Position numbers and translations under genes: made by a program
Origin: a virus
IMG/VR virus record: IMGVR_UViG_3300042346_001122
Span: 1 to 31,118 of that record
DNA length: 31,118 nt
Strand: one strand, 5' to 3'
The notes under the pieces: model-generated
What the model was told of the DNA's origin: nothing
What the model saw: only the letters and a program-made list of their open reading frames with translations
Database searches by the model: none
Part shown: in pieces, positions 6,702 to 18,637 of the stretch
How the letters are laid out: the number at the start of each line of letters is the position of its first letter
How positions within the stretch are numbered: the first letter of the stretch is position 1

Positions 6702-7772
6702 ATGAATACTAAACCTATTTACCGCGTTCCTCTAATGAAAGAGATAGAAGAAATACCCTGGAATGGGTTTAATGTTGTCTCTACATTTAGCGGAACAGGC
6801 GGATCATGTCTTGGTTATCGGATGGCTGGCTATCGAGTCTTGTGGGCTAATGAATTTATTCCTGCGGCTCAGGATTCTTATAAAGCTAATCATCCAAATT
6901 CAATTCTTGACAGGCGAGATATCCGAGAGATTTCTGCTCAGGACATCTTAACAGCAACCGGATTGAAAATAGGAGAGATAGATATATTTGATGGCTCTCC
7001 CCCTTGTGCAGCTTTTTCAACAGCAGGAAAACGTGAAGCAGGATGGGGAAAAGTTAAGCAATATTCAGATACCAAGCAAAGAGTTGATGATTTGTTTTTT
7101 GAGTACGCTCGACTAATCAAAGGAACACAGCCTAAAGTCTTTGTTGCTGAAAACGTATCAGGATTAATCAAAGGAACAGCTAAAGGCTACTTCTTAGAAA
7201 TCCTTAAAACACTCAAAGATTGCGGTTATAACGTCAAGTGTAAAGTGCTAGATGCTCAATGGCTTGGTGTTCCTCAAATGCGACAACGGACTATCTTTAT
7301 AGGTGTTAGGAATGATTTGAAGTTAGAACCTGTTCACCCAAAACCGTTGCATTATCAGTACACAGTTAGAGATGCTTTACCTTGGATAACTCAGATTAGA
7401 CAAACAGATGTTTTTGTCGAAGCAGAAACCGATATCTCAAAATATGCAATTGGTAGAGAATGGGACAAAATAAAACAAGGCGAAAGTTCAGAGAAGTATT
7501 TTTCTCTGACTAAGCCACACCTAGATAAACCGTCTCCATGCGTCACCCAAATAGGCGGTGACAATACTTGTGCATCGGTAGTTCATCCCACAGAAAAACG
7601 GAAATTTTCAATTCAAGAGTTAAAACGAATTTGCGCTTTTCCTGATGATTTTATTCTAACAGGTTCCTATGCCCAACAATGGGAAAGATTGGGTAGGGCT
7701 GTTCCACCTGTTATGATGTCACATATTGCCAAAACAATTCAATTAGAAATACTAGAAAAATGTGTGGATTAG
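6702..7772 (+). CDS. C5-cytosine DNA methyltransferase, possible carboxymethyltransferase
   Basis: A 356-residue protein with the ordered C5-methyltransferase motifs: I FSGTGG (29-34), IV SPPCAAFS with catalytic Cys102, VI ENV (150-152), VIII QMRQR (192-196) and X LGRAVPPVM (330-338). Motif X normally reads GN(A/S)V; here Asn is replaced by Arg332 (codon agg at 7695-7697). In M.MpeI the equivalent Asn374 changed to Lys is known to allow use of carboxy-SAM instead of SAM, giving 5-carboxymethylcytosine. With a CmoA-like gene two genes downstream, I infer that carboxy-SAM is the natural cofactor. Target sequence is unknown. No restriction gene is adjacent. The gene starts immediately after the ParB-like stop and overlaps the next gene by 13 bases. 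Confidence 0.9.
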   Translation: MNTKPIYRVPLMKEIEEIPWNGFNVVSTFSGTGGSCLGYRMAGYRVLWANEFIPAAQDSYKANHPNSILDRRDIREISAQDILTATGLKIGEIDIFDGSPPCAAFSTAGKREAGWGKVKQYSDTKQRVDDLFFEYARLIKGTQPKVFVAENVSGLIKGTAKGYFLEILKTLKDCGYNVKCKVLDAQWLGVPQMRQRTIFIGVRNDLKLEPVHPKPLHYQYTVRDALPWITQIRQTDVFVEAETDISKYAIGREWDKIKQGESSEKYFSLTKPHLDKPSPCVTQIGGDNTCASVVHPTEKRKFSIQELKRICAFPDDFILTGSYAQQWERLGRAVPPVMMSHIAKTIQLEILEKCVD

Positions 7773-9115
7773 CGGGTACATACAAATCCAGCGTAGATGT
7801 AGAGTCTATGCTTCTTAAAATAATACATAGGGGGCGAGATGGTCAAGGTGTTCACAAGCATGAAGACACTGTTCATGGTCACGTTAGGCTGTCTTTACTT
7901 GATTTAAGTTCGGCATCTAAACAACCTTTTATCTTAAATAATTCCACTCTTTCATTTAATGGTGAGATATGGAATTATAGAGATATAAAAAAGAAGTTAC
8001 AAGACGACGGGTGCAAATTCAATACAACAGGTGACACCGAAGTATTGAGTCAATTTTTAGATATTTACGGTGTTTCACGGCTAAATCAACTAGAGGGAAT
8101 GTTTGCTTTTGTATGGAGTAAAGGGGATGAGCATTGGCTTGTGAGAGACCGTTTTGGTGAGATACCCTTGTATCTGGCAAAAACGAATAAAGGGTATATT
8201 TGGGCATCTGAAAGAAAAGCATTTCCTAGTGGTGTTATGCCTGTTGCCGTTCCTCCGGGCTATGCTTTTAATCTAGTGAAAGGCGAGTGGTTTCAATGGT
8301 ACAAGCTACCAGGAACAACACCACAGCAAAATATATTAGATTGCTTGAATAGGGGTGTAGAACAAAGATTAAATGCTGATACTCCCGTCTGCTGTCTTAT
8401 ATCGGGCGGATTAGATAGCGTCTTGGTTCTGCAAATAGCAAAGTCTATAAACAAAAACATCGTAGCTTTTACAGCAAAAATGCGTAATGATTCAAATGAT
8501 TTACTAGCAGCCAGGAAGATATGTAGTGAGTATGAAATTCAATTAATAGAAGTGCCAGTATCTATTGATTTAGATTCTTTAACTAACGCAGCCAAGGTAA
8601 TAGAAATTAACAGCAAAGCTCAAATAGAGATAGCTTCATTATGTCTACCATTAGCACAAAGGATAAGGGCAGAAGGCTTTAAATCTTGCTTATCTGGTGA
8701 AGCTGCCGACGAGCTTTTTGGTGGTTATGGTAATTTCTGTATTCAGGCATCCAAAAGCACAAATACAGAAGTTATATCTCTTAGAAAAAGTCAATTAGCA
8801 AAAATGGCAAGAGGTAATTTTGTTAGGTGCAATAAGTCTTTTATGTATGGTGGCGTAGAGTGTAGATTGCCTTTTATGGATGTGAAGTTAGTTGAATATG
8901 CCATAAACTTAGACCTCTCGCAATCACCACCAAATAAAAAACTACTGAAATCCGCGTCGGCTAGACTGCTACCTAAATGGGTGATATCCAGGGTTAAGGA
9001 TACTTTTCAAGGTGGTAGTGGTGTGTCCGATTGGACAGAGAAAAATATAGCATCGCCAATAAAATTTTACAACAACGAACTAAAGAAAACTTTTGGATAC
9101 TTACCCAAGGATTAA
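7760..9115 (+). CDS. AsnB-like glutamine-dependent amidotransferase
   Basis: A 451-residue protein, shorter than cellular AsnB (about 510-630). The glutaminase half is intact: nucleophile Cys2 (MCGLAG), HRGRDGQG (23-30), SFNGEIWNY (65-73), TTGDTEV (89-95). The synthetase half has the PP-loop SGGLDS (215-220), LSGEAADELFGGY (311-323) and ECRLPFMD. So it can make ammonia from glutamine and activate a carboxylate with ATP. The stretch where AsnB holds aspartate (TTIRAS in E. coli) reads SKAQIEIAS here, so the substrate may not be aspartate. Between a C5-methyltransferase and a CmoA-like gene, amidation of a carboxymethyl base is the best guess. Starting at 7760 puts Cys in position 2, which decides the start. 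Confidence 0.85.
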   Translation: MCGLAGTYKSSVDVESMLLKIIHRGRDGQGVHKHEDTVHGHVRLSLLDLSSASKQPFILNNSTLSFNGEIWNYRDIKKKLQDDGCKFNTTGDTEVLSQFLDIYGVSRLNQLEGMFAFVWSKGDEHWLVRDRFGEIPLYLAKTNKGYIWASERKAFPSGVMPVAVPPGYAFNLVKGEWFQWYKLPGTTPQQNILDCLNRGVEQRLNADTPVCCLISGGLDSVLVLQIAKSINKNIVAFTAKMRNDSNDLLAARKICSEYEIQLIEVPVSIDLDSLTNAAKVIEINSKAQIEIASLCLPLAQRIRAEGFKSCLSGEAADELFGGYGNFCIQASKSTNTEVISLRKSQLAKMARGNFVRCNKSFMYGGVECRLPFMDVKLVEYAINLDLSQSPPNKKLLKSASARLLPKWVISRVKDTFQGGSGVSDWTEKNIASPIKFYNNELKKTFGYLPKD

Positions 9116-9821: not shown

Positions 9822-9887
9822 AATGAAACTAATGGAAAGATTGCCAGATTAATTAATATTAACTGTGATATAATATTAATAGTAAAT

Positions 9888-9943
9888 GCCCTTCGCGATG
9901 TTTCAGCATCCAAGGGCTGTAAACCTGATTCAGAGGTATCACA
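9888..9943 (+). promoter_or_regulatory. Structured 5' leader, copy 1
   Basis: A TATAAT (9869-9874) is followed by a hairpin: GCCCTT (9888-9893) pairs with AAGGGC (9912-9917) and GATG (9897-9900) with CATC (9907-9910) around loop TTTCAG. Then TAAACCT and GATTCAGAGGTATCACA precede the ATG; ACCT can pair with AGGT and hide the ribosome binding site. The same architecture occurs before the genes starting at 11892 and 12397. Confidence 0.6.
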
Positions 9944-10750
9944 ATGAATAACTTTAACAAAGAATTGGCTCTAACCTTAATTGATTCTAGCATTGAGTTT
10001 CCCGTTGACTTTGATGACGCGATGCAATGGTGGGACTGTCGGACTAAGGATGGAAGTCTTACCACTCGACGGCAGTTAGTCGCAAAACTCAAGCAAAACT
10101 TTGATCAAGGATTAGATTGGACTTTTGCACAAATTTATGAAAAAGTCCAAACAGGGCGACCCGTTGATAAAATCTACCTGACAGTGGACACCTTCAAAGA
10201 AATGGGAATGATGTTACCTAGTGGCAAGGGCAAAGAGATCCGGCGTTATTTCCTTGAGTGTGAACGGGAGTTAAAACAACTTAGATCAGAATCCGCCCAA
10301 ACTCAAACAGTCTCATCCCAACCCACGCCGCGCGATATTGCTGATTTTGTCTCTGTCATCCTAAATATCGCGGGTTTGGATCAGAGTATGATTGCAGCGT
10401 CCGCAGCTAATCACGTCGCTAAATATTATCCGGCGCTCCGTCCCTCGGCTGAAGACTTAAAAAAGGAATTAGTCATCGAGACATCGGAAAAACTTCTCAC
10501 GCCCACCGAACTCGGATTAATCCTAGAGCAGCGCACCGGAATTAAACACTCAGCGCAACGGGTCAACAAACTCCTATCTGAGAATGGATTGCAAACCCCA
10601 AACCCTCACGGGAAAGATCCGGCTTGGTTGCCAACGTCAAAAGGATCAGAATTTTCTAAGTTGTTACTCGCCGCACAGAAGGGGATTAAGGACGCAACCC
10701 GTCAACACTTGCAATGGTTTGAATCCGTTGTTGATGTTTTGGCGGCGTAG
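9944..10750 (+). CDS. AntA/AntB-type phage antirepressor
   Basis: A 268-residue protein. Residues 1-110 match the AntA/AntB antirepressor N-terminal domain: FPVDFDDAMQWWD, then IYLTVDTFKEMGMMLPSGKG and IRRYFLECERELKQL. A linker follows, then a helical C-terminus (TPTELGLILEQRTGIKHS, VNKLLSENGLQTP, and a WLPTSKGSEFSKLL stretch) that reads as a DNA-binding KilA/antirepressor C-domain. Such proteins relieve repression or control entry to the lytic cycle. Translation is probably regulated by the hairpin leader just upstream. The start follows AGAGGT at a normal distance. A bidirectional terminator follows. Confidence 0.75.
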   Translation: MNNFNKELALTLIDSSIEFPVDFDDAMQWWDCRTKDGSLTTRRQLVAKLKQNFDQGLDWTFAQIYEKVQTGRPVDKIYLTVDTFKEMGMMLPSGKGKEIRRYFLECERELKQLRSESAQTQTVSSQPTPRDIADFVSVILNIAGLDQSMIAASAANHVAKYYPALRPSAEDLKKELVIETSEKLLTPTELGLILEQRTGIKHSAQRVNKLLSENGLQTPNPHGKDPAWLPTSKGSEFSKLLLAAQKGIKDATRQHLQWFESVVDVLAA

Positions 10751-10761
10751 GGTGAAATAGC

Positions 10762-10793
10762 AAAAAGCCTAGGATTCAACCTCTAGGCTTTTT
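10762..10793. terminator. Bidirectional rho-independent terminator
   Basis: An 11-base perfect stem, AAAAAGCCTAG (10762-10772) with CTAGGCTTTTT (10783-10793), around a 10-base loop. It lies between the convergent ends of the antirepressor and the small minus-strand gene and has T-runs in both directions. Confidence 0.85.
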
Positions 10794-10799
10794 GAATCT

Positions 10800-10940
10800 T
10801 TATTTACTTACAATCCTTACATCTTTTCGATTGTAAGTTTTAATATCGTCCGTCCATTCAGCTAACAGCTTTTCGTCTGGATCGCACCAAGGATAACCCG
10901 GACAATACCAACCTAAACTATCCCTAAATTGAATTTTCAT
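10800..10940 (-). CDS. Small hypothetical protein, 46 residues
   Basis: A 46-residue frame from ATG 10940 to TAA 10800-10802: it starts MKIQFRDSLGWYCPGYPWCD and ends DVRIVSK. It begins three bases after the stop of the RHH gene, and the shared terminator lies directly downstream, so it completes an operon. It has one Cys pair with aromatic residues (YCPGYPWC). Not recognised. Ribosome binding site weak, so only moderately sure. Confidence 0.5.
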   Translation of the reverse strand: MKIQFRDSLGWYCPGYPWCDPDEKLLAEWTDDIKTYNRKDVRIVSK

Positions 10941-10943
10941 GGT

Positions 10944-11129
10944 CTATTTTTCCCGTAACAGATTGTTTACAATATCGCTTCGTGATCCTTCTCCCTGAGC
11001 TACCAGGGCATCTAATTTAGTTAGTAGGTCAGATTCTATACAGATACTAACTGTCACTCTTTTAGAGTCACCCTGTAGCTTTCTGCCACCATTGGGGTAA
11101 GAGCCACCCCGCCCGATGTATTTACTCAT
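10944..11129 (-). CDS. Small ribbon-helix-helix protein
   Basis: I start it at ATG 11129 (MSKYIGRGG), which overlaps the end of the upstream gene by 8 bases (GATGAGTAA), giving 61 residues; a longer frame begins at 11159. The C-terminus fits a CopG/RHH domain: the strand RVTVSICIE followed by SDLLTKLDALVAQGEGSRSD and IVNNLLREK. RHH proteins are DNA-binding, often plasmid or phage regulators or antitoxins. No toxin partner is recognisable. Confidence 0.7.
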   Translation of the reverse strand: MSKYIGRGGSYPNGGRKLQGDSKRVTVSICIESDLLTKLDALVAQGEGSRSDIVNNLLREK

Positions 11130-11439
11130 CTGTTGACTGCAACACTTCAGGGCAATCATCCCAACAGTTACCCCAATCGGATAACTCTGTATAGGTTTTA
11201 TCTAGCTTAACCAGGACGGTTTGACCATTGTCGGTGTAGTAGCCATATCGGTCGTTTTTCATATCAAATAAAACTCCGACCTGTTTGCTGTTGCCAACAC
11301 CTATAACTTCCCAGTCAACAACGTCAATACCAAAACCCAAAGCGTCAAATTCATCAACGCGATTTAATACCAGTTCAATAGCTTCAGGCTCGAAATCATC
11401 GGTTTCAGATACCAAGTCTTCTAGTGTTAGTTCGTTCAT
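11122..11439 (-). CDS. Hypothetical acidic accessory protein
   Basis: A 105-residue acidic protein (NELTLEDLVSETDDFEPEA at the start). The middle looks like beta sheet (KQVGVLFDMKNDRYGYYTDN, then QTVLVKLDKTY) and the end is WGNCWDDCPEVLQ. Not recognised. Its ATG follows AGGAACACGCC, and a strong hairpin stands 34 bases upstream. It is translationally coupled to the RHH gene below it. Confidence 0.6.
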   Translation of the reverse strand: MNELTLEDLVSETDDFEPEAIELVLNRVDEFDALGFGIDVVDWEVIGVGNSKQVGVLFDMKNDRYGYYTDNGQTVLVKLDKTYTELSDWGNCWDDCPEVLQSTDE

Positions 11440-11472
11440 GGCGTGTTCCTGTGTTGTTGTTTAATGGTTGCC

Positions 11473-11498
11473 AGCCCGTGCAACTTGTAGCACGGGCT
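11473..11498 (-). promoter_or_regulatory. Leader hairpin before the gene at 11439
   Basis: A perfect 9-base stem, AGCCCGTGC (11473-11481) with GCACGGGCT (11490-11498), around an 8-base loop, between two minus-strand genes. There is no T-run on the minus strand, so I read it as a leader structure or processing site rather than a terminator. The sequence after it (ATTAAACAACAACACAGGA) resembles the leader of the plus-strand gene at 20775. Confidence 0.55.
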
Positions 11499-11509
11499 GT
11501 TATTGATTG

Positions 11510-11680
11510 CTAACTCAGATCCCCTTCATTTAGTGCTGCCCAGTATTTTTCGGCTGTAATGGTGTAAAGGTATTCGCCGTCGTTTGCGACCCAATAGCCG
11601 TCTTCTAGTCTTAGGTTTTGTAGCTTGTTTTGAGCTACAAATTTATTGACCTGTCCTGCGTTTAATCCATCAACTGACAT
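11510..11680 (-). CDS. Small hypothetical protein, 56 residues
   Basis: A 56-residue frame from ATG 11680 to TAG 11510-11512, starting MSVDGLNAGQVNKFVAQNKL and ending TITAEKYWAALNEGDLS. Ribosome binding site GAGG lies 9 bases upstream in a CACACAGAGG context like other small genes here. Composition is normal and soluble. The function is unknown; the arrangement (HTH-like start, then short beta segments and a helix) is not diagnostic. Confidence 0.6.
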   Translation of the reverse strand: MSVDGLNAGQVNKFVAQNKLQNLRLEDGYWVANDGEYLYTITAEKYWAALNEGDLS

Positions 11681-11709
11681 ACCGTTTTTCCTCTGTGTGT
11701 TTTAATAAT

Positions 11710-11892
11710 TTAGTTATAGCATAGGGCTTTTAGGTTTGTCAATAGGTAATCTAAAATTCTTTCTAGGACTGGATTAGACACCAAAAAACACGGGTTTTGA
11801 CTCCGTGCCTTTTGGTTGTTATGTGGCGATCGCTTAATTCCCTGACTCAATAGACCAGCTAGAATAAGCCTCGATGCGATAATATTGTTCAT
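11710..11892 (-). CDS. Small hypothetical protein behind conserved leader
   Basis: A 60-residue frame starting MNNIIASRLILAGLLSQGIK and ending LLTNLKALCYN. By composition alone it is weak, but it has a GAGGT site six bases before ATG 11892 and one of three copies of the structured leader directly upstream, which argues that translation begins here. A HIP1 octamer lies inside. It may be a truncated gene, since the C-terminal half looks random. Confidence 0.42.
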   Translation of the reverse strand: MNNIIASRLILAGLLSQGIKRSPHNNQKARSQNPCFLVSNPVLERILDYLLTNLKALCYN

Positions 11893-11951
11893 TAGTGAAC
11901 CTCGGTACTAGGTGAACTCACGTCCCCGAATGCAGAAACATTGCGGGGACG
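11893..11951 (-). promoter_or_regulatory. Structured 5' leader, copy 2
   Basis: Read on the minus strand: CGTCCCCG pairs with CGGGGACG (11944-11951 and 11921-11928) and AATG with CATT around loop TTTCTG, with one unpaired C on the 5' side. Then TGAGTTCACCT and AGTACCGAGGT precede the ATG; ACCT can pair with AGGT. Matches copies at 9888 and 12398 in layout, loop start (TTTC) and spacing. Confidence 0.6.
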
Positions 11952-11965
11952 CTTATTATAACAAT

Positions 11966-12397
11966 TTAATCAGTCCCAAACTTTTCCCTGAGTGCCAACA
12001 TAGCTTTTTTCTTCTTATGTCTGAGATATGATTCGGCATCGGTCAGATTCCGACCTGGATAGATTCTCGGCCTCCCTACGGGCTTAGGGTCTGAGGTTGT
12101 TATTTTCTCATGGATTCTCGGTCGCCCCTCTGGTTTGGGATTTGAAATTTGGGACGCTCCGCAGGGTGTACAGCGCCACTTCTGCCTCCCGTCCGAATGA
12201 ACCCCGTTTTTTTTCATCTTGTGTCCGCACTTTGGACATGGCGGGTTTTTCTTGGCTTCATTGGATTTTCGATTCCGTAACCAACAGGGATTGCAGAAAT
12301 ACTTTTGTTTTCCGGTTGGCGTTATCCCAGACTTCCACATCTTCCCACCGCAAGTTAAGCAGCGCGGGTTATATTTTTCCGTGTTATCTTTGTCCAT
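11966..12397 (-). CDS. Double zinc-ribbon protein with two AT-hook-like motifs
   Basis: A 143-residue protein with two transposase-type (InsA/IS1-like) zinc ribbons in tandem: CLTCGGKMWKSG...YFCNPCW (about 13-39) and CPKCGHKMKKNG...WRCTPCG (about 54-79). Then come two copies of an AT-hook-like core, PEGRPRIHEK and PVGRPRIYPG, and a basic tail (YLRHKKKKAMLALREKFG). It therefore looks like a DNA-binding protein, perhaps a regulator or silencer-type protein derived from a transposase N-terminus. No transposase catalytic domain follows. It lies behind copy 3 of the structured leader. Confidence 0.65.
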   Translation of the reverse strand: MDKDNTEKYNPRCLTCGGKMWKSGITPTGKQKYFCNPCWLRNRKSNEAKKNPPCPKCGHKMKKNGVHSDGRQKWRCTPCGASQISNPKPEGRPRIHEKITTSDPKPVGRPRIYPGRNLTDAESYLRHKKKKAMLALREKFGTD

Positions 12398-12455
12398 TAG
12401 TAGCCTGTTCTGTAGGTTTACTCAAGTCCCCAGATGTGGCAAAACATCGTGGGGA
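12398..12455 (-). promoter_or_regulatory. Structured 5' leader, copy 3
   Basis: Read on the minus strand: TCCCCA (12455-12450) pairs with TGGGGA (12432-12427) and GATGT with ACATC around loop TTTGCC, with one bulged C. Then TTGAGTAAACCT and ACAGAACAGGCTACTA precede the ATG; CCT can pair with AGG. Base changes between copies keep the pairing (TCCCC/GGGGA here, CCCTT/AAGGG in copy 1). Confidence 0.6.
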
Positions 12456-14896: not shown

Positions 14897-17206
14897 TCAA
14901 GTATCCGAACCCTCGCCAACAAGATAACGTGCTGGTTCAAAGTACGGGTACGAATACGGGGAGATTCTAGCCCATTTTACCACTTTTCCTTCTGAATCAA
15001 GAATTGGTGAACCTCTTAGCCGCTCTGATTCTACTACCTCGGCGAAATAGTTCTCTGATGTACGGTCAAAGCCTTCATAAGTGCCCGGAGGAGCTGCTAC
15101 AGGTTTTAAATCAATATAATATCTATAGGGTCTAACACTACTTCTCCCGTGTGCGCTAAATTTAGTCTCAAGCTCAAAGATAAAATAACTGGTATTTGTT
15201 AACGGTTTTTTTGGACGCTCCAATAAATTCCAGAATATCCAATCTTTTTGATTCCACAAGGATTGAGGCTTAATGTAATCAGGGATTGATTCTATTGGGA
15301 AATAACGATTTAATGATAGGTCTGTTGTAAAATCAGGTATTGGGTTTGTAGCCCAAGTACCAGGAATTGTCCCCGCTATTTGTGGGTAGCAAATCGGATT
15401 ACCTGAGAAACCATTGTCCGACGCTCCTAGGTTGGAAATTGAAATCAAATTAAACCTAGCGTTGCTAGTCCCTCTGTTGTCATAAAATGACCGATATCTG
15501 GGGGTTTTCTCTTGAGTTGATATTTCGTAGCCGATAACAAATTGTTTTGTTTCTGTTAAAGGTTCTGGGTATGTTTTTAAAGATTCTGAAACAATAGAAA
15601 ATGTTTTTTTATCTATTGTAAACGTTTTACAATATTTCCAACTGTCTTTTTTGGGTCTGGCATTACTTGTAATTACACCCGTCCCATAATTACGACTTAC
15701 CTTGCTATATTCATCTCCAATAAAAGGCACGGTATCGGGTGACTGTATCCATCCTTGAGTTGTTTCATCGGGTAACTGTTTTCCTGTCTCCCACTCTCTA
15801 ATTGTTCCATACAATATTGAAGCATAAATATTTTCTTTATCCATACTGACACGCCCAACAAAAGCCTCTGAAACTATAGGCTGTTCAGTCGGTCGCCATT
15901 CTGTTGCAGGGATATTGCTTTGAATGTATTCACCAGTTCCACTGCCAATCTTGCCATTTATATCCCCCGTTTCTGTATCCCAATAACTAAGTTTATAATG
16001 TTCTGCGGGTGCATCGGGAATAAATTTAACCTTTGTTGCTCTTGTTGGAAATTCAATTGGAAGGGTTAGTTCTTGTGTTTTTCCTTTTGATTGGTAGTTT
16101 AAAATAATGGAAGAATACCGACCTTTGAATCTCAAGGAATAAACCGGAATCTCCTCCTCAACAGGATCAGGATAGATTTCCCCATTAGCGTCTGTATTAC
16201 ATCCAGATGGTGAAACGCCTCTGACAAATCGAAGGGAGCCGGGGATACCCCAGTAAGCTAAGATTTGATTTAAGTAGCTCTCGATAGCACCCTTTTTATC
16301 GAGTTGGCACATAACCGCAAAATACCCATTTTTATGTGCTTCGTCAGATGCTTCCCCTGCTGCTTCAGGGATAAAAGATTGGTGCGCTGAAATATTGACA
16401 GCGTTAATATCAGAATCTATAAGAGGATGCCAAGCATTGTTATTTAAAACACTACCACAATTGGGAAAAACCTGAAGCTCATTGAGATCCAAAACGGTTA
16501 ACATTCGACTCATTGTATAAAAACCGAAATCTTCCTCGTCTTCCCAATTGACGTATCTCATGACATTCGGTGCTGTTGGGTAGTAATTAATGTATGCCGT
16601 TTCCTCACTCAAAAGTAAAGCCGTTGGAGTCTGAAACATATAATTTTCTTTCTTCCAATTTGGAATTTTTGGGGTTCTAAAACCTATTTTTATTAGTCCC
16701 GAAGGGTAAGGAATCGGTTTAAGAAGGGGACAATGTTGTGGGCTTTGGGTTGGGGCTACTCCTAACAAAAAGTTTGAATCTGGGTATTCTTGCCAATTTT
16801 GCCAAAAGCCATAGAAATTGGGATTATAAGATTGGGTTTCCTTATTGGGATAAGTTGATTGTCCTGCTATTTTAAAAATCTGATAAAATGAAACAGGGCT
16901 ATTCCCACCCTGTAAATCGTAAAATAAAGTAACTAACTTGCTTTGGGGTGTATCAGATGTGTTTGTCCCCTGTCTTTTTGTGTCACTTAAAGCGTCTTCC
17001 TCTGTAGCATAAACTCCTGTGGGTTCGGGAATTTCAAGACAGCATTCTGCTACGCCACCAGGTGACAATATTTTTCTCCACGATGTTGTTCCCCCCGTAA
17101 AAACAAATTCCCTGTCATTTTCTTGAAGTTTTGAATAGAGGAAAGCAAAATCAAGTTTATTAATTATTGCCTCTGTAGAGAATTTATAAGCTCCGTTAAT
17201 TTTCAT
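14897..17206 (-). CDS. Large virion-like protein, 769 residues
   Basis: The largest gene here. It is rich in aromatic residues, Pro, Ser and Thr, with few charges clustered and no visible signal peptide, membrane span or coiled coil: typical for a structural virion protein (tail, spike or fibre). Phrases such as FVFTGGTTSWRKIL, LVTLFYDLQGGNSP and the repeated YRY/YRYYI elements look like beta sheet. It is translated right after the 276-residue gene (ATGA overlap at 17203-17206). I do not recognise a family; the end (SPYSYPYFEPARYLVGEG) gives no clue. A tail-associated or receptor-binding role is only a guess. Confidence 0.65.
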   Translation of the reverse strand: MKINGAYKFSTEAIINKLDFAFLYSKLQENDREFVFTGGTTSWRKILSPGGVAECCLEIPEPTGVYATEEDALSDTKRQGTNTSDTPQSKLVTLFYDLQGGNSPVSFYQIFKIAGQSTYPNKETQSYNPNFYGFWQNWQEYPDSNFLLGVAPTQSPQHCPLLKPIPYPSGLIKIGFRTPKIPNWKKENYMFQTPTALLLSEETAYINYYPTAPNVMRYVNWEDEEDFGFYTMSRMLTVLDLNELQVFPNCGSVLNNNAWHPLIDSDINAVNISAHQSFIPEAAGEASDEAHKNGYFAVMCQLDKKGAIESYLNQILAYWGIPGSLRFVRGVSPSGCNTDANGEIYPDPVEEEIPVYSLRFKGRYSSIILNYQSKGKTQELTLPIEFPTRATKVKFIPDAPAEHYKLSYWDTETGDINGKIGSGTGEYIQSNIPATEWRPTEQPIVSEAFVGRVSMDKENIYASILYGTIREWETGKQLPDETTQGWIQSPDTVPFIGDEYSKVSRNYGTGVITSNARPKKDSWKYCKTFTIDKKTFSIVSESLKTYPEPLTETKQFVIGYEISTQEKTPRYRSFYDNRGTSNARFNLISISNLGASDNGFSGNPICYPQIAGTIPGTWATNPIPDFTTDLSLNRYFPIESIPDYIKPQSLWNQKDWIFWNLLERPKKPLTNTSYFIFELETKFSAHGRSSVRPYRYYIDLKPVAAPPGTYEGFDRTSENYFAEVVESERLRGSPILDSEGKVVKWARISPYSYPYFEPARYLVGEGSDT

Positions 17207-18364: not shown

Positions 18365-18637
18365 TCATGTTGATCTTTTCCACGCTTTTCTACAATCTTC
18401 AGAAGTAAACTTATACAGTGTTCCTTTATCACGAGATGTCTTGCCGCCTTTACGACCTATCTCAGTCATGTAGTCTTTGTTTCGTGATGTGGAAACCCCG
18501 CCATCGCTACACTCGTCTGGCGTGAATTTATGAAGCGTTCCTTTATCGTGAGATGCTTTACCGCCTTTGCTAGAAATCTCCCGACGTTTTTCTGGGCTCA
18601 TAGCAGCAAAACCACATTTCTTATTTTCTGATTTCAT
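18365..18637 (-). CDS. KGG-repeat stress-type protein
   Basis: A 90-residue, very polar protein with several copies of the KGG/GGK motif: GFAAMSPEKRREISSKGGKA near 9-28, SDGGVSTSR near 44-52 and IGRKGGKTSRDKGTLY near 60-75. The unit (about 35 residues, ending in KGTL.KFT) is repeated twice. This matches the small general-stress KGG family (YciG-type), whose role is not well known. Such genes appear in phages and plasmids as accessory genes. It is encoded next to a divergent methylase gene. Confidence 0.6.
   Translation of the reverse strand: MKSENKKCGFAAMSPEKRREISSKGGKASHDKGTLHKFTPDECSDGGVSTSRNKDYMTEIGRKGGKTSRDKGTLYKFTSEDCRKAWKRST

Follow-up and report, generated by a model that had tools for sequence, protein, structure and literature searches.

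Three structured leaders in a 31-kb virus contig

The virus contig IMGVR_UViG_3300042346_001122 (31 kb; its whole stretch of 31,118 nt was analysed and is called the window here) contains three look-alike structured leaders, each directly before an open reading frame (ORF). The nearest named relative at the leader locus is Planktothrix phage PaV-LD. All three copies share one architecture: a strong stem with a bulged C (hairpin 1, HP1) is followed by a weaker hairpin that includes the Shine-Dalgarno sequence (hairpin 2, HP2). The 3' end of HP2 lies 0-1 nt upstream of the AUG. The features are listed below together with their support; the covariance models R1 and R3 are described in the next section.

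9869-9874 (+): TATAAT, -10-like box, 13 nt upstream of copy 1 HP1 (sequence)
9881-9946 (+): leader copy 1, before the antirepressor-like gene
9888-9917 (+): copy 1 HP1, GCCCUU-C-G-C-GAUG-UUUCAG-CAUC-C-AAGGGC, bulged C9894 and C9896 (fold, R3 at 42.1 bits, covariation)
9918-9943 (+): copy 1 HP2, UGU/ACA and ACCU-N7-AGGU around the Shine-Dalgarno sequence (fold, covariation)
9944-10750 (+): antirepressor Ant-like protein, 268 aa, behind copy 1 (phrog_63, E 8.9e-13; phrog_5817, E 1.2e-11)
11955-11960 (-): TATAAT directly upstream of copy 2 (sequence, kept in relatives)
11954-11890 (-): leader copy 2, before a 60-aa ORF
11921-11951 (-): copy 2 HP1, CGUCCCCG-C-AAUG-UUUCUG-CAUU-CGGGGACG, bulged C at 11943 (fold, R1)
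11894-11918 (-): copy 2 HP2, AGU/ACU and ACCU-N7-AGGU across the Shine-Dalgarno sequence (fold)
11710-11892 (-): 60-aa ORF behind copy 2, probably a remnant (no family match; comparison with contig L025)
12460-12395 (-): leader copy 3, before the zinc-ribbon, Lar-like gene
12427-12455 (-): copy 3 HP1, UCCCCA-C-GAUG-(loop of 8)-CAUC-UGGGGA, bulged C at 12449 (fold, R1 at 77.7 bits as a member of its training set)
12399-12422 (-): copy 3 HP2, AGUA/UACU and CCU-N7-AGG across the Shine-Dalgarno sequence (fold)
11966-12397 (-): zinc-ribbon, Lar-like protein, 143 aa, behind copy 3 (phrog_6422, E 1.3e-37)

A first-pass annotation of the sequence had reported three such structures before genes, with outer stems that differ and still pair. 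The structures are confirmed at their positions, and each folds into HP1 and a second hairpin. The outer stems of copies 1, 2 and 3 read GCCCTT/AAGGGC, CGTCCCCG/CGGGGACG and TCCCCA/TGGGGA, a difference that proves to be true covariation in the wider family, and the inner stems GATG/CATC, AATG/CATT and GATG/CATC. Copy 1 has two bulged Cs, copies 2 and 3 have one each. The described pairing of (A)CCT with AGG(T) over the ribosome binding site is seen in three of three copies with a constant spacing of 7 nt, while TGAGTAAACCT, taken for a single-strand stretch, is mostly paired and forms the 5' side of HP2. Minimum-energy folds amount to -18.6, -26.5 and -18.2 kcal/mol for copies 1 to 3. Folds as stable were obtained for one of 200 shuffles of copy 1 (z = -3.11), none of 200 for copy 2 (z = -4.44) and two of 200 for copy 3 (z = -3.00).

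In the PaV-LD group TATAAT is usually located 13-14 nt upstream of HP1, in most copies of the copy-1 type, and near relatives retain the leaders, mostly with a TATAAT-like box upstream. A sigma-70 consensus scan did not flag the box of copy 1, which therefore has no good -35 box. HP1 of all three window copies is absent from the list of a terminator scan.

That a structured 5' leader is common to unrelated genes stands as first described, with antirepressor, zinc-ribbon and, in relatives, further genes behind it. Regarding the three genes themselves, copies 1 and 3 do precede genes, whereas the ORF at 11892 is probably not functional, because similarity to contig L025 stops shortly past the start codon. 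L025 has an intact gene with a KilA-N domain (E 4.6e-16) behind a copy-2-type leader, and its nucleotide similarity to copy 2 covers about 90 nt, mostly leader. Copy 2 is thus probably an orphan leader whose KilA-N gene has been lost. Such orphans of leader 2, with the gene lost or replaced and abrupt divergence after ACCT(A), were seen in the window (11890-11954) and in L002, L004, L006, L010 and L084. No homing endonuclease is found among the window genes behind the leaders (antirepressor, zinc ribbon and remnant ORF).

A leader family of homing endonuclease genes

Pattern and protein scans of viral contigs gathered about 100 loci. Three covariance models were used: R1, trained on sequences of the copy-2 and copy-3 type only; R2, from HNH-leader loci and variants of copy 1; and R3, from 31 endonuclease leaders of other phages with no sequence of the PaV-LD group. 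R1 recovers the held-out copy 1 (35.7 bits, E 9e-10, 78 kb searched) as well as a leader of PaV-LD (42 bits) whose inner stem differs, GACA/UGUC. R3 recovers copy 1 of the window with 42.1 bits (E 5e-11) and three PaV-LD leaders, the antirepressor leader with 43.4 bits and two others with 33 and 32 bits; its rows were aligned using R2, which had seen copy-1 variants, so that the alignment, not the sequences, keeps some trace of them. Copies 2 and 3 are not found by R3 (copy 3 at 8.6 bits) and are matched weakly by R2, on ranks 3 and 4 at their exact positions (14.3 and 12.1 bits). They are therefore linked transitively only: the two belong to a diverged subfamily that has lost the first bulge and is joined to the others via R1 and copy 1. 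In another contig a gene with a PAPS-reductase domain lies behind a leader of this subfamily (L101:603-1505).

Searching whole records, R2 matches 30 of 46, including a 142-kb contig with 10 copies, a 95-kb contig with 6 and PaV-LD with 3; for PaV-LD the count is five once the R1 matches are added. A search of 15 named-phage records (about 2.7 Mb), picked for related endonucleases or known regulated ones, gave R2 matches at E<=1 in Variovorax phage V45v66 and Pseudoalteromonas phage XG4 only, in both cases before GIY-YIG genes. A laxer threshold added only weak R2 matches in these records, and as strict filters were applied, weak members may be missed. In genome contigs a pattern scan for the copy-2/3 type gave no match, and a GIY-YIG protein scan no confirmed relative, results that are no measure of how far the leader occurs in host genomes. 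A weak leader copy (22 bits) was observed before a Bro-N gene on the Planktothrix agardhii plasmid p3 (NZ_LR882966.1, about 15135-15202, minus strand; locus L219).

The window has no Rfam match at the gathering threshold, in line with the earlier statement that the element fits no known riboswitch class, and at E<=5 no relevant family was found for the endonuclease-leader loci. The covarying homologues on which the first-pass annotation had made its hypothesis depend were found by the covariance models, and in this respect the hypothesis survived. Taken together, the leaders form a real RNA family outside Rfam, centred on phage homing endonuclease genes, to which copy 1 belongs directly and copies 2 and 3 by way of their subfamily.

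The hairpin of copy 1 is found in unrelated contigs immediately upstream of HNH and GIY-YIG homing endonuclease genes. Upstream of relatives of the HNH gene (L106-L113, L117, L141 and L150) this hairpin recurs with other stem sequences; two bulged Cs flank a single pair, and then come the linker CUCUAAC, a second hairpin that surrounds the Shine-Dalgarno sequence, and AUCAGC-AUG. The more distant HNH relatives L114 and L118-L126 are without the leader. Copies outside the PaV-LD-like group stand, essentially without exception, before a free-standing GIY-YIG or HNH endonuclease gene or a short remnant; a sample of these genes was assigned by family search, the others from a reading of their translations. 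In PaV-LD-type cyanophages the leader heads antirepressor, KilA-N and zinc-ribbon genes. This tie to endonuclease genes in unrelated phages makes the leader look like one carried with mobile genes and re-used in PaV-LD-type phages for antirepressor, KilA-N and zinc-ribbon genes. The "phage regulon" initially proposed is not supported in that form, given the wider family of free-standing homing endonuclease genes.

Three leader-headed genes of PaV-LD-type phages (L025:1060-1644; L197:940-1629, minus strand; L258 from about 311) have a common C-terminal domain behind differing N-terminal modules (KilA-N, phrog_32599 and one unknown). Its motif GRID[IV]LtD..lIE[IV]Kd...WK.AIGQ resembles PD-(D/E)XK nucleases. 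A fold search with this domain (model pLDDT 68) gave no PDB match below E 0.35, so that the label "nuclease-like" rests on the motif only.

Similarity between leaders reaches into the first codons, AUG-ANU-AUU-UAU (M[T/S/N]IY), which are common to endonucleases of different families; the leader therefore behaves as a 5' cassette common to unrelated ORFs. Upstream, 29 of 37 endonuclease leaders have a T4-late-like TAAATA whose end is 3 or 5 nt away from HP1, while only 3% of shuffles have TAAATA anywhere in the final 18 nt. The T4 late promoter TATAAATA spans -13 to -6 (PMC1524935), and with a gap of 5 nt the predicted +1 is the first base of HP1. The position of the box, the leader and the common first codons suggest that promoter box, leader and start region are one portable cassette with predicted start sites.

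Such a cassette could mainly be a recombination module for gene swapping, like the PeSLs of T4-type phages, with the fold being secondary. Leader and first codons common to unrelated ORFs would be expected of such a module, as would the abrupt divergence after the leader between close relatives, the leaders without their gene and the many copies per genome. Homologous recombination, however, would not favour stem sequences that vary while pairing stays, and the hairpin, which comes after the promoter, lacks a U-run and is no terminator. We regard gene swapping as an unlikely main role.

Covariation and a proposed role in translation

Covariation was assessed on 62 distinct leader copies (alignment A5, in which 61 others join the window copy at 9888-9917). 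Pairing is kept in 96.9% of the HP1 cells and in 81% of the HP2 cells, with double-sided changes in 11 of 11 and 3 of 3 pairs, respectively. With the register shifted by one base, pairing falls to 45-50%, and none of 500 shuffles reached the pairing or the covariation score. Against a tree-based null, in which substitutions were replayed on a FastTree tree of 54 rows, 8 of 14 pairs are significant at E<0.05, of which seven belong to HP1 and one to HP2. A further pair at E<0.05 (columns 45-91) is the outer HP2 pair, which is C-G in endonuclease leaders and G-C in the PaV-LD group. RNAalifold recovers HP1 with both bulges unprompted. The first bulged C is present in 62 and the second in 60 of the 62 copies, the linker U and A in all of them, and the loop measures 6-7 nt in 58.

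The conserved six-base loop starting with TTT, as first described, did not hold up. Between close relatives the loop of copy 1 reads CTGAAA or TTTCAG, the exact reverse complement, with flanks identical at 79 of 80 bases; copies 2 and 3 have exact inverses too, in contexts that have diverged further. Hence the sequence of the loop itself is not essential. Inner stem-loops in both orientations were seen for the three window hairpins (9888-9917, 11921-11951 and 12427-12455) and in L006, L025, L042 and L073. These data point to frequent small inversions at the hairpins, a DNA-level event at inverted repeats.

The consensus order is a promoter-like box, HP1, a short linker with an invariant UA, HP2 enclosing the Shine-Dalgarno sequence, and AUG; HP1 consists of an outer stem, a C bulge, one base pair, a second C bulge, a 4-bp inner stem and a loop of 6-7 nt. 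By analogy to known hairpins we consider it likely that the element is a structured mRNA leader of about 66 nt that limits or delays translation of phage mobile genes. Transcription starting at or just before HP1 would place a stable hairpin at the 5' end of the mRNA, which might protect the message and insulate the start site from ribosomes arriving from upstream. HP2, a weak hairpin, would keep the Shine-Dalgarno sequence partly closed, and the product would be made in small amounts or late. Translation might be gated in time, or by a factor recognising the bulged-C hairpin with the bulged Cs as recognition feature. This would serve to hold down the amount of a nuclease or DNA-binding protein that may be harmful until infection has reached a late stage.

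That the predicted transcript begins with a bulged hairpin would also suit an RNA acting on RNA polymerase, i.e. antitermination like HK022 put, by which terminators are passed. Yet R2 has no credible match in HK022, the best one (17.7 bits, E 0.02) showing no visible hairpin of the HP1 kind, the served genes are single short ORFs, and HP2 at the start codon would be left unexplained. We therefore judge antitermination very unlikely. Two further candidates were dropped. A riboswitch was rejected as lead reading, the conserved core being small and the served genes being without a common metabolic theme. A closing helix round HP1 and HP2 together (copy 1: UGUGAU/AUCACA; some of the endonuclease leaders: GCUGA/UCAGC) has its 5' strand upstream of the predicted start, and in several cases this strand overlaps the stop codon of the upstream gene.

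Some observations weigh against control of translation by the leader. The function is inferred from anatomy and analogy. HP2 is short (3-6 pairs), some of its positions are unpaired in about a fifth of the cells, and randomisation of its stem length was not significant. Its outer pair is invariant within the endonuclease set, and therefore the change reflects about one event, between the two groups. Alignments A5 and A6 were made with the help of structure, which favours structure. In the known T4 cases transcripts from the late promoter no longer contain the inhibitory hairpin; late transcripts of the present leaders would still carry HP1 and HP2. Finally, the HP1 cells comprise 654 Watson-Crick, 3 G-U and 16 A-C pairs, a G-U share far below what an RNA helix would be expected to have; the A-C excess partly comes from one group where a shifted pairing is possible.

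The near absence of G-U pairs would fit HP1 being a DNA element, i.e. a cruciform, a single-strand hairpin or a protein operator by the promoter, with the RNA fold being incidental. The exact inverse loops, as a DNA-level event, and the location of HP1 at the predicted start site agree with this. However, the stem sequences are too variable for an operator read as duplex DNA, the element always has the same orientation to its gene, conservation of the bulges is confined to one side, and HP2 carries 14 G-U pairs and covers the Shine-Dalgarno sequence. A DNA element appears improbable to us. Few G-U pairs would also result if the covariation was mutational, with template switching copying one arm onto the other and pairing being kept without selection. 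The loop inversions show that such a process occurs at these hairpins, but it would erase the conserved unpaired Cs, and it explains neither the fixed position before the start codon nor HP2. Hence we give this explanation hardly any weight, and a leader acting at the RNA level on translation remains our preferred reading.

Rather doubtful is the extension that the bulged-C hairpin is the site for one common host or phage factor timing all mobile nuclease genes of a genome. If true, up to ten or more selfish genes would form a portable regulon based on RNA, and temperate-like cyanophages would have adopted it to control antirepressor and KilA-N genes. Free-standing homing endonucleases shape phage genomes. 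A common leader RNA with up to ten copies per phage contig is a handle for finding and annotating such genes. It suggests a common control point, offers a test system for how selfish genes stay tolerable, and adds a structured-RNA family absent from Rfam.

Elsewhere in the window, a small protein with a KGG stress-induced repeat (Pfam PF10685, E 1.5e-10) is encoded at 18365-18637 (-). The ORF at 7760-9115 (+) begins with MCGLAGTY and resembles a glutamine-dependent asparagine synthetase, as read from the translation alone; a C5 cytosine methylase gene (6702-7772) adjoins it.

Comparison with known systems

With Rfam families nothing in common was found. The PeSL cassettes of T4-like phages (Arbiol 2010, Comeau 2014) are cited in PMC4503421, by title, as promoter-terminator motifs. 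Like the leaders they are multi-copy units of promoter and stem-loop linked to gene swapping; in a PeSL, an early promoter would be coupled to a terminating stem-loop. As far as that title description goes, they differ from the window-type hairpin, which follows its promoter, is no terminator and is located at the start codon. R2 has no credible match in RB49.

SAS and ESAS of cluster K mycobacteriophages (PMC3203893) are likewise repeated elements, with an inverted repeat just upstream of many unrelated start codons in one phage. SAS, however, is a fixed 13-bp sequence and the ESAS arms keep a sequence consensus, whereas the leader stems covary. The 13-bp SAS GGGATAGGAGCCC is absent from the three window leaders, and R2 has no match in TM4.

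Closest are the hairpins of T4-type endonuclease genes, which sequester the ribosome binding site of I-TevI, I-TevII, I-TevIII, SegB and MobE, late transcripts avoiding the inhibitory hairpin (PMC2988022). Together with seg43(25), described in the same source, they share with the leaders the endonuclease genes, a hairpin at or near the ribosome binding site and an adjacent late promoter. Such a hairpin is predicted as HP2 in three of three window copies, with one HP2 pair beyond the tree-based null. Nothing credible was found by R2 in T4, Aeh1 and phage 25. The T4-type structures were described individually, and control of endonuclease expression was previously known from a handful of them. 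The leader family, in contrast, serves GIY-YIG, HNH and non-nuclease genes and has an additional 5' bulged-C hairpin. One conserved RNA family serving unrelated endonucleases as well as antirepressor, KilA-N and zinc-ribbon genes of cyanophages appears to be new.

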